From Candidatus Saccharimonadota bacterium (lineage in GTDB: Bacteria; Patescibacteriota; Saccharimonadia; Saccharimonadales; Saccharimonadaceae), in contig WSMR01000004.1 in NCBI GenBank assembly GCA_013316435.1, positions 1 to 39,024 of the forward strand: a stretch of DNA of 39,024 nucleotides, read 5' to 3'. Positions 1 to 39,024 of this stretch are shown here, piece after piece. The notes beneath the pieces were generated by a model. The model had not been told where the DNA came from. It did no database searches and saw only the letters and a list, made by a program, of their open reading frames with translations. Within the stretch, counting starts at the first letter, position 1. Each line of letters opens with the position of its first letter. The translations under genes were made by a program, and so were the position numbers.

Positions 1-48
1 AACGACTATCGTGGCTACGGTTTCGCTCTTCGCTGCGTCGGGAGATGA
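1..48 (+). CDS. C-terminal fragment of a DGR-target-like / FISUMP-type (C-type-lectin-fold) protein, truncated by the window start
   Basis: Frame 1 reads NDYRGYGFALRCVGR* ending in TGA at 46-48; strongly resembles the C-terminus encoded by the VR at the window end (NYYRGYGFAVRCVVREG*). Confidence 0.6.
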   Translation, partial: NDYRGYGFALRCVGR

Positions 49-118
49 GAGGAGAAGGGTGTTAGCGATAGCTTTTTCTCTCTACTCTATCCTGACATCC
101 TTTCTTTAGATTTGGGCC

Positions 119-8110: not shown

Positions 8111-8339
8111 ACTCTAGGGGCGGTCAGTTCATCGAGAATATGCTTGGTGGATTTGGACGAAATCTTTTGCGGAAGGTGGGAGATGCACTTTTTAAAAGTA
8201 TAAAAGTATGCGAGGTTAGGTACACTTGCATACAAAGTCGTCTCAAAATTGTGTGCGATTTGCCTCGCACCGTCGATTCAAAGTTGAGGGTCTTGATTTT
8301 CGTTCGTGCATAGCTGCACCTGTATGGACTTTTATTACT

Positions 8340-8523
8340 TTCTCCGTACGGGCAACTACAATCGCTCGAATGGCAACATCAACGAACGCGTCACAAATGG
8401 CAACTGGTGGTCTACTACTGCTGGCTCTGCTACAAACGGTCACAACTTGAATACGAACCCGACGAATGTCAACCCTCAGAATAACAATTACCGCGGGAAC
8501 GGTTTTGCCGTTCGCTGTGTGGT
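8340..8523 (+). repeat. Candidate DGR template repeat (TR); 5' boundary approximate
   Basis: Conceptual translation NYNRSNGNINERVTNGNWWSTTAGSATNGHNLNTNPTNVNPQNNNYRGNGFAVRCV; 17 of 49 codons in 8354-8500 are AAC/AAT, the usual DGR TR composition. The 8481-8523 part matches the VR at 38982-39024 at 41/43 positions, both mismatches at TR adenines. Confidence 0.85.
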
Positions 8524-8657
8524 TTTGCCGGCACCTTTGACATGCCCCCATATATTATATATTTGCTTCCGGCGGAGAACTTCGCTAGCGTCAATGCTTA
8601 GTAAGAGTTAATCGCGGCGAGAAGCCTCGCTGCGCTCGGCGCTTCGTCGTCGACTCA

Positions 8658-8685
8658 AAAATCCCAAAAATAATTTTGGGATTTT
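8658..8685 (+). terminator. Rho-independent-terminator-like hairpin after the TR
   Basis: AAAATCCCAAAA (8658-8669) / TTTTGGGATTTT (8674-8685), perfect 12-bp arms ending in a T-run. Confidence 0.6.
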
Positions 8686-8755
8686 CTCGCGCTCCTCCTC
8701 GCTACGAACCCACTGCTATCGTAGTCGGTTCGTCCCGCCACCAAAATGTAAAAAA

Positions 8756-8793
8756 ATAGAAATAGTCTAGGCAAATGCCTAGACTATTTCTAT
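8756..8793 (-). terminator. Rho-independent terminator of the tRNA-Glu unit
   Basis: ATAGAAATAGTCTAGGCA (8756-8773) / TGCCTAGACTATTTCTAT (8776-8793), followed on the minus strand by TTTTTT. Confidence 0.75.
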
Positions 8794-8869
8794 GGTGATT
8801 CCGGCGGGAGTCGAACCCGCGATTTTCTGGATGAGAACCAGACGTCCTGGACCACTAGACGACGGAACC
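8793..8869 (-). tRNA. tRNA-Glu (anticodon CTC), with encoded CCA
   Basis: Minus strand GGTTCCGTCGTCTAGTGGTCCAGGACGTCTGGTTCTCATCCAGA...GGGTTCGACTCCC...CGGAATCACCA; 7-bp acceptor stem, T-loop, anticodon loop TTCTCAT. Confidence 0.93.
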
Positions 8870-36039: not shown

Positions 36040-37332
36040 TTACACCTCAAACTCTTGCCCGGCTGCCCGCCAAATCCGCTGCTGCATTTTGCGACAACCA
36101 TAATTCACACAACCACCCATATACGACATGATCGTATCAAGATCTTTGAGCCCGCTCGCCACGTCCATCAGCGCTTGATAATAATTCTTCTGATACCGAT
36201 GGTCCATTTCAATATGACCGGAGCGCAAAAACCTACCTAAATAAGTTACTCCGTGGCGCACGTCAATCCAACGTGTCTTGCTCGGGTGCATGGTTAGCCC
36301 CATGGTCAGTAAATAACTCCGAAGCCGTTCAATATCTCGCTCCAGCTGCGGTATTTCATCGTCATTCACAACCACATAAAAATCATCCACGTAGCGGCCG
36401 TAGTGCTGATAGCCAAGTTGGTAAACGATAAATTTATCCAGCGCATCAAGGAAAATATTCGAAAGTAGCTGCGAAGTAAGATTGCCAATCACAATTCCCC
36501 GCCCGGCATTCTGAAAGAACAAACTCTTGTCACGCGGCAAATCGTCCCAATGTTTAATCTTACCTCGCACCCGCACTTGCTTGAGCGGATCGTCCATAAT
36601 TACCTGTCGCCATAAATAGGTCAGCAATCTTCCCAGTGGTCCAAAATGATGAAACTGCCGATGCGCACCGTCAATCGCAAGATCCCGCAATTTCTCACGT
36701 TGCATACTCATAAAAAATCCTTTGATATCCATTTTGACAAAATAGGTATGCCGAGTATAGTTCCGACTTTTTACTGCAATATGATGCGCCGCGCGACGCA
36801 CGCCATAATCCGTCCCCTTCCCCACTCGACAGGAATACGAGTCACGCACAAAATGACGATTCCACCACGGAATACAAATATTAATAATCAGATGATGTAC
36901 AATGCGATCCCGAAAACTTGCCGCAAAAATTTCCCGCACCACCGGATCAAACACGATAAATGCCTCACTACGCGATGGAAAATACTTACGCTCGGCAATA
37001 TCCACCGCCAGTCGATAAATATTATCATACAAATTCGCCTCAATCCGCTGGACGTCATAGGTTCGCCGTTTCCCAGGTCGCGCATCAAAATAAGCATAAA
37101 ATAGCATTTCGTAAATCTCATCGGCATTAAAATCCGAGCGCCCCGATTCGATCACATTTTGCTCCATCGCGCTGAGATGAGAATATTTACTATGCATTTC
37201 GAGCAACTTTTTCTCGTAACGCGCCATCCGCGCTCTAGTTTTGAGAAGCTTAGTTTCGCGCCAAGCAATCCGGCTGGCAACTTCTATCGGATCTTTCTGC
37301 CGGTCCCGCTTCGCATATCTTGGGTCAGCCAT
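36040..37332 (-). CDS. Diversity-generating retroelement reverse transcriptase
   Basis: GIVIGNLTSQLLSNIFLDALDKFI (DGR-type IGNLTSQ) and HYGRYVDDFYVVV (catalytic YxDD); 430 aa without obvious maturase or endonuclease domain. Confidence 0.92.
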   Translation of the reverse strand: MADPRYAKRDRQKDPIEVASRIAWRETKLLKTRARMARYEKKLLEMHSKYSHLSAMEQNVIESGRSDFNADEIYEMLFYAYFDARPGKRRTYDVQRIEANLYDNIYRLAVDIAERKYFPSRSEAFIVFDPVVREIFAASFRDRIVHHLIINICIPWWNRHFVRDSYSCRVGKGTDYGVRRAAHHIAVKSRNYTRHTYFVKMDIKGFFMSMQREKLRDLAIDGAHRQFHHFGPLGRLLTYLWRQVIMDDPLKQVRVRGKIKHWDDLPRDKSLFFQNAGRGIVIGNLTSQLLSNIFLDALDKFIVYQLGYQHYGRYVDDFYVVVNDDEIPQLERDIERLRSYLLTMGLTMHPSKTRWIDVRHGVTYLGRFLRSGHIEMDHRYQKNYYQALMDVASGLKDLDTIMSYMGGCVNYGCRKMQQRIWRAAGQEFEV

Positions 37333-38683
37333 CAGCTTCGTTGCCGTCTTTTAGCTTCTCAATCACATCGTGTTGATGATAATGCGTATTCAGTTTTTGC
37401 CTAGTTAACTCACGCGCCTTTGCTAATCCGAGACTTACCCGCGCAATCGTATTCCGATTGGCAATCCCAAGATCAGCATAGTTCGCCAGCACCGACATCG
37501 CATCGCCGATATGTACATCAACTTGTTCCAGCGCCTGCCAACGCGCTGGGTCACGGCGTGACCGATTTGCTACGTCATAATAAGCTCGGCGTACTTTGAA
37601 CATACTATCCATCAGTGGATGAGAAATGGCCGGGCGAGAATTACTATCAAGATGTCGCTCCAAATGGTAGCTATCGCGCAGTGCTGCCACAATATAATTA
37701 TTTAGCTCCACTTCCGGTGCAGCGGTGAAAATATTATTACTAATATTTTTCAGGACTTCAGCATCGAGTTTATGGAAGCGACGCAGCTCATTATCAGTCA
37801 GTGCTACACGCAAGCGATAAGCCCGAATCAAATCTTGAAACGGGCCAAAGTTAACTTTCTTATCCAAAGTGAGTGGTGCGCCGGAATAGTGAATATCTTT
37901 TTGCAAACGCTGCTCGTCTTGAAGACAAATCACACCTTCGCGAAATTGTCCGAACAAATCTCGATCAGTATTAACTTTGATTTCACGATCGAGATAGGTC
38001 GCTATCATCAAGCTATGAATTGCAATAGAGTTGCCACCCATTTTCCACCAATTCCCAGTGGCAGATTTGAAAATAAAAATGTGCAAGTGATTATCTTTTT
38101 CTAACCGCCGAACTAGCAATTTCGCATGTTTGAGTAATTCGCGTTGGTATTTAGCTTCTTCATCCTTGGTCAATTCCTCTTTGTCTTTGAGGTCACCTAG
38201 TTCGTTGTCTAGCATATCTACCACCGCCGCGAGTCCAAAGCGGATGTTTTCGTAGGCCTCTTTTTCTTCGTTTTCCTGTTTGATATGTAGCAAAGTTTTT
38301 TGGTGAGGCTTGTCTTTGTATTTGGTTGGCAGTTCATAGCGTCGTACTTCGTCGGCAAGTTTTTGTAGACCCTCCGAACCGCGACGACCATCCTCACGCC
38401 TCACACGTTCCGCCACGTCGCTGAGCGGCGGCACTGATGATTTATCCTCTTTAGTGGCGGACTTCTCGGAAGCCTTCTTGGCTGCCTTTGCCACCCGCGC
38501 TACGCGCGCCGCATTCGCGGTTGGTTTGGATGCTAACTTCGCCGGACGAACCTTTTTCGTATCGTTCGCCTGTTCAGAGTCAATCCCCAAATCGAGAGGC
38601 ACTTTTTCCAAATTGTGGATTTTATTTTCGGTCACTGTTTTTGTCCTTTTTTGGCAAATGGTTGCAGGGACCTTCTGTCCCAC
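37325..38683 (-). CDS. DGR accessory protein: Lys/Ala-rich N-terminus and helical (Avd-like?) C-terminal region
   Basis: Overlaps the RT start by 8 bp, same strand; C-terminal SMFKVRRAYYDVANRS...LANYADLGIANRNTIARVSLGLAKARELTRQKL looks like a helical bundle. Confidence 0.6.
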   Translation of the reverse strand: MGQKVPATICQKRTKTVTENKIHNLEKVPLDLGIDSEQANDTKKVRPAKLASKPTANAARVARVAKAAKKASEKSATKEDKSSVPPLSDVAERVRREDGRRGSEGLQKLADEVRRYELPTKYKDKPHQKTLLHIKQENEEKEAYENIRFGLAAVVDMLDNELGDLKDKEELTKDEEAKYQRELLKHAKLLVRRLEKDNHLHIFIFKSATGNWWKMGGNSIAIHSLMIATYLDREIKVNTDRDLFGQFREGVICLQDEQRLQKDIHYSGAPLTLDKKVNFGPFQDLIRAYRLRVALTDNELRRFHKLDAEVLKNISNNIFTAAPEVELNNYIVAALRDSYHLERHLDSNSRPAISHPLMDSMFKVRRAYYDVANRSRRDPARWQALEQVDVHIGDAMSVLANYADLGIANRNTIARVSLGLAKARELTRQKLNTHYHQHDVIEKLKDGNEADG

Positions 38684-38968
38684 ACAACCATTTTTCCCAG
38701 AGATTATAATAGTTTTTGTTTTCGTTATTTTTCGCGGATTCGCCGCTACGGTTTTCCTTGTCCCTGCGCTTTTCGCTTGTTCCCTCCTCCGGAGGAGGCG
38801 AGAAAGCGGGGACTTAGAAAACCTTTCCCTTTTTCCAGCAAAATTTCTGACAAATTTTGCGGTGCATATTATTACTTTCGCTTCGCTCCTTTTCGGTCGG
38901 AGCGGGAAGCCGTAGACCTTATGCTTCGGTCACTACAACCGGCTCCCCCAAGAGCATTACTACCTCTC

Positions 38969-39024
38969 TCACCCCTCCCGTACCACACAGCGAACGGCAA
39001 AACCGTACCCGCGGTAATAGTTAT
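38969..39024 (-). CDS. DGR target gene, C-terminal end with VR (truncated by window end)
   Basis: Minus strand reads ...NYYRGYGFAVRCVVREG*; the 43 nt at 38982-39024 match the TR at 8481-8523 with two A-to-T differences. Confidence 0.85.
   Translation of the reverse strand, partial: NYYRGYGFAVRCVVREG

Follow-up and report, generated by a model that had tools for sequence, protein, structure and literature searches.

In current understanding, a diversity-generating retroelement (DGR) is a compact locus, and the gene that it rewrites is expressed. The locus described here has the expected reverse transcriptase (RT) and only a fragment of a target. The DNA analysed, referred to as the window, is a stretch of 39,024 nucleotides. 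It corresponds to contig C60 of a Saccharimonadota genome, G000 (0.69 Mb, 63 contigs, 81.6% complete). The following features are found at one end of the window.

36040-37332, minus strand: DGR RT, 430 aa, with IGNLTSQ (motif 4) and YVDDF (motif 5)
37325-38683, minus strand: accessory protein, 452 aa from a called GTG start, of a family kept upstream of the RT in relatives
38951-38968, minus strand: non-coding tail, GAGAGAGGTAGTAATGCT, common to other variable repeat (VR) copies and outside the homology to the template repeat (TR)
38969-39022, minus strand: VR 3' end of the presumed expressed target (last 17 codons and stop), truncated by the contig end

An earlier note, made from the sequence alone, had described an RT with these two motifs, a gene upstream of it with an 8-bp overlap and, beyond a further 285 bp, the C-terminus of a target. 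All three observations held; both ORFs have the coordinates listed, and the target stub, which closes with NYYRGYGFAVRCVVREG and a stop codon, ends at position 38969.

The RT is the only one of DGR type in the assembled genome. Among solved structures, the Bordetella DGR RT (8ub7; E = 3.9e-26) is its closest relative. The best group II RT (E = 7e-6) was 20 orders of magnitude behind. The window protein was also matched by PHROG 1423 (reverse transcriptase; E = 4e-67) and by the general RT model of Pfam. In the alignment, IGNLTSQ falls opposite IGSLTSQ of the Bordetella enzyme, and a group II protein has GGVISP at the same place. Assignment to the group II, retron or DRT classes was considered and rejected; only weak matches were obtained, with models of other classes below cut-off or poorer. 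The class call rests on structure-relative, profile and motif matches, without a tree spanning all RT classes.

A TR beside the RT is a usual, not strictly defining, DGR trait. It is present in most canonical relatives examined and absent from the window. A distance of 27.5 kb separates the RT from the sole A-rich copy of the repeat, which is on the opposite strand.

8337-8524, plus strand: TR, adenine-rich, with AAY at variable codons, intergenic
8525-8700, plus strand: stretch 3' of the TR, with a predicted fold steadier than shuffles (z = -2.8)

Judged by predicted folding, the second of these could be a structured spacer of the template RNA. The TR is 270 bp from a gene for tRNA-Glu (region 8337-8869). 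A promoter scan around the TR found none, and an Rfam scan of the window returned two tRNAs and nothing else.

Because contig C60 ends inside the repeat, the window holds just the final 54 nt of the target. The last ~60 nt of the target occur a further 36 times in G000, with 88-100% identity. A search with the TR located 41 further places, including some contig-end fragments and members of a second family described below. By our count, the genome has at least 35 full or near-full VR copies. Rates of change were measured for 28 ungapped copies with at least 80% identity to the TR. At TR adenines, 616 of 1407 cells (43.8%) were changed, compared with 105 of 3701 (~3%) at other bases (C, 3.2%; G, 2.6%; T, 2.6%). 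The bias is supported by a Fisher test that treats cells as independent (p ~1e-279). One copy has 24 adenine differences from the TR and none at any other base. The recurrence of the last ~60 nt, and the adenine-specific pattern, show that the target stub is not a product of chance. Taken together, the element is a DGR because its RT matches the Bordetella enzyme and the TR/VR pairs differ almost solely at TR adenines.

Only one VR copy is found in a long gene. This copy is at the end of contig C1, where the upstream frame of 585 aa opens with a signal-peptide-like start and includes a Fib_succ_major domain. The gene is broken by the assembly within its VR. All remaining VRs are gene-less. The arrangement in relatives suggests that C1, with the target, joins C60, with the RT. 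We infer from its sequence that the long target is probably a secreted or surface protein of the Fib_succ_major type; that it is expressed is also an inference. The earlier note had read the locus as a DGR, contained in one minus-strand cassette, with a surface-displayed hypervariable target. The DGR identity is supported by the RT match (4e-26 vs 7e-6) and by the TR/VR pattern. A surface-displayed target is plausible, given the signal-peptide-like start and Fib_succ_major domain of the only long target with a VR of this family. The single cassette is an incomplete description; the TR is remote and most VR copies are outside genes.

The solo copies are intergenic cassettes of ~200 bp, with no gene, shared start codon or common flank. 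Each starts sharply at the VR start, preceded by 0-9 nt of target-type sequence, and ends shortly past the stop codon; beyond these limits the flanks are unrelated. Nearly all VR copies sit in ORFs of ~54-180 aa, which open at unrelated stops and share no start. A few run into unrelated frames. Around 30 full cassettes are internal to contigs and have unique 5' flanks. Lacking a start of their own, the solo copies are unlikely to be expressed in place, as far as sequence can tell. Of 39 listed places, one of which is the TR, 20 have a tRNA gene no more than 600 bp away. For random points ~8% would be expected, a rough figure that rises if intergenic space alone is counted. The reading frame is intact in nearly all cassettes, with one clear break (L018:2791), and none of 74 non-adenine changes creates a stop. 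A test for purifying selection at non-adenine sites of the cassettes was not significant (24 of 49 changes synonymous, 39% expected, p = 0.09). Coding constraint at these sites is weak, as decaying copies would show. An empty-site comparison with relatives was tried for one cassette, and its flanking genes were not neighbours there.

Three further observations concern the structure of the cassettes. Their ends in G000 form an imperfect inverted repeat, CCTCTCAACTTTCTCCGTAC / GTACGGGAGGGGTGAGAGAGG, which may bear on cassette spread. In five VR copies (L012:2967, L020:255, L029:3446, L058:1501 and L059:1675) the 8 nt GCTGTGTG of the VR 3' end are replaced by ~110 nt (TAGTAACTTCGCTATCG...CCCTAG) carrying a hairpin. 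The position of the replacement is constant though the VRs differ, and L020 has a variant form. There is also a second family of solo ends (SPLDFVYTGYY...FALRCVGR, then stop), represented in the window, at L022:2401-2680 and in L011, L014, L018, L012, L095 and L098. Its ends are often chained to the first family, and vary mostly at codon positions 1-2. No template for this family was found in the loci examined. The window copy is at the opposite contig end from the target stub.

2-60, plus strand: 3' end of the second hypervariable cassette family (...FALRCVGR and stop)

The cassettes exchange segments with one another, because identical and mosaic VRs are set in different flanks. The VRs match completely in two pairs and at 97% identity in two others; the flanks differ in all four. 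With near-duplicates removed, another pair still has 14 consecutive mutated adenines in common (positions 78-162), yet the upstream parts differ. The maximum in 400 column shuffles was 9. The cassettes L009:7430 and L014:4130 have a 5' flank in common (79% over 263 bp) and different VRs. Therefore, duplication was followed by the in-place replacement of at least one VR. These two cassettes lie in paralogous units (L009:6985-7621 and L014:3700-4325), each with two divergent VR cassettes and a ~235-bp spacer, and both near tRNA genes. The units may represent a duplicated or mobile block. Two non-adenine markers, at TR positions 8425 and 8497, divide the VR copies into T/non-G (11 copies), T/G (11), C/G (7) and C/A (2). 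This division suggests that the set records at least three successive versions of the TR.

The accessory protein has a disordered or helical N-terminus, an alpha/beta domain (residues ~201-291) and a C-terminal helix bundle (297-448). In the AlphaFold model (mean pLDDT 73) the alpha/beta domain is confident, and the helix bundle is also seen. Structure comparison shows that the bundle resembles the S23/Avd four-helix family. Against the crystal structure of Bordetella Avd (4dwl_D) the probability was 1.00, with a TM score of 0.82 of target and an rmsd of 1.9 A, at an E value of just 0.13. Sequence-family searches with the protein gave no family match and no convincing sequence-level match. Most relatives examined encode a homologue of ~270 aa immediately 5' of the RT. 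We consider it likely that the accessory protein is of Avd type, fused to an additional domain, with the caveat that this rests on the fold match (E = 0.13) of a predicted model. DGRs include a MutS-like accessory class, and we do not imply that the window protein belongs to it.

Among the 59 other genomes of the genus, 37 have a homologue of the RT; the rest of the order has almost none. Most relative loci examined have the order target, accessory, RT, with a convergent TR directly 3' of the RT. The dispersed layout of G000 is shared by G022, from a second species of the genus. In G022 (98% complete, 20 contigs) the RT and TR are on separate contigs. There are ~40 TR-homologous cassettes, in places forming dense internal arrays of alternating orientation, and 42% of adenine cells are changed, vs 8-13% for other bases. 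The assembly breaks off the one long candidate target, of 940 aa, where the Fib_succ_major domain begins, the domain also present in the G000 target. Many solo VR ends also occur in G011, G008 and G030. The last of these genomes (L156, L232-L234; 97% complete) has 49 VR-like matches and no detectable RT; an archive left behind after loss of a DGR is one possibility.

We propose that this is a dispersed DGR feeding a silent-cassette archive for one surface protein, and put the probability of this reading at roughly 0.6. In outline, the one RT and its Avd-type accessory protein would copy a single free-standing template RNA (8337-8524) into cDNA mutated at adenines. This cDNA would home to the VR that forms the 3' end of one long gene, probably for a secreted or surface protein. 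Variants would also have reached at least 30 gene-less copies of the target 3' end scattered between genes. Direct homing of cDNA to these solo cassettes is inferred; they may instead be mere copies of the target end or of one another. The solo copies would act as a silent reserve of finished variants. They recombine segment-wise among themselves, as shown above, and, by inference, with the expressed gene. Diversity would thus arise off-line, and expression would draw on one variant at a time, like antigenic variation of the vls or pilS type. No read data were available, the genome is incomplete and the target VR is cut, so cassette-to-target transfer is not directly seen. For the Bordetella DGR in E. 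coli, transcription of the target mildly affects the mutation rate and no more (PMC12875486). Silent recipients are therefore plausible. A bolder form of the proposal, which we think slightly more likely to fail than to stand, is that the RT writes random, adenine-directed variants into a large silent reservoir, from which homologous recombination installs segments in one expressed surface protein. Mutagenesis would then be uncoupled from expression, in a two-stage type of system not described so far.

The main rival is a graveyard. Here, an ordinary DGR target has shed many 5'-truncated, non-functional copies; the cassettes are by-products without a role, and their adenine changes were inherited by copying from the active VR. 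This remains possible, and it stays the main rival because non-adenine sites of the cassettes are only weakly constrained by coding. The missing start codons, the genome (G030) with many such ends and no RT found, and the compound and paralogous cassette pairs, which resemble repeat spread, also favour it. Conversely, frames are intact in nearly all cassettes, the non-adenine changes include no stop and, outside adenines, the cassettes are near-perfect matches to the current TR or a recent one. Furthermore, the common flank and different VRs of L009:7430 and L014:4130 require at least one replacement after duplication.

Two other explanations fare less well. Each cassette could be an expressed short target, or a gene end missed by ORF calling, so that one RT serves dozens of targets in trans. 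Trans activity and multiple targets are known for DGRs (PMC10907252: 15 targets, 21 VRs). However, the cassettes have no common start or upstream coding sequence, their ORFs open from unrelated stops and their flanks differ, and we regard this explanation as unlikely. Least likely of all is an artefact in which short-read assembly fused VR ends to unrelated flanks. The terminal 41-56 nt of many contigs, the window included, do belong to the conserved 3' end of the VR, as expected of repeat-length breaks. Against this are the ~30 full cassettes inside contigs with unique 5' flanks, the dense internal arrays of the G022 assembly, and the many solo ends in G011, G008 and G030.

The DGR of Bordetella phage BPP-1 (bRT, Avd, TR and the mtd VR; PDB 8ub7 series, 4dwl) has an RT homologous across the catalytic motifs, adenine-specific TR-to-VR change, an Avd helix bundle like that predicted here and a VR at the target 3' end. 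The window differs in that the TR is remote and on the other strand, the protein with the Avd-like bundle carries an additional alpha/beta domain, and G000 has its many VR copies, nearly all gene-less. DGRs of Patescibacteria/CPR (Roux 2021; PMC8144416) are likewise cellular and from a small-genome lineage; G000 differs in its solo VR archive. In Thiohalocapsa PB-PSB1 (PMC10907252) several VRs occur and some are diversified in trans. That genome has its VRs within complete target genes, and its DGR loci number nine, whereas G000 has a single RT, a single TR and cassettes that mostly lack a gene. Published claims of very high VR numbers exist, for example for repeats within one adhesin-like gene (PMC6642488). 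Borrelia vls and Neisseria pilS comprise one expressed gene and many promoterless truncated copies that share segments. G000, and also G022, similarly have one long gene, whose expression is inferred, and many truncated copies without starts, and the G000 copies recombine segmentally. Unlike those of vls and pilS, the G000 copies are diversified from a template RNA by reverse transcriptase, and gene conversion into the expressed gene is inferred. We found no report of DGRs coupled to silent cassettes, or of solo VR cassettes, in the open-access literature searched; subscription papers were not covered. Trans-acting and multi-target DGRs were already known (PMC10907252).

A published survey required one repeat within 1 kb of the RT (Roux 2021; PMC8144416). 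The window locus fails this rule, and such a survey would therefore miss it. If our reading is true, surveys that demand a repeat close to the RT overlook systems of this kind in Patescibacteria. The cassettes would also preserve an ordered record of earlier template versions. Templated mutagenesis and silent-cassette conversion, both known routes to surface variants, would then be joined in one very small genome.
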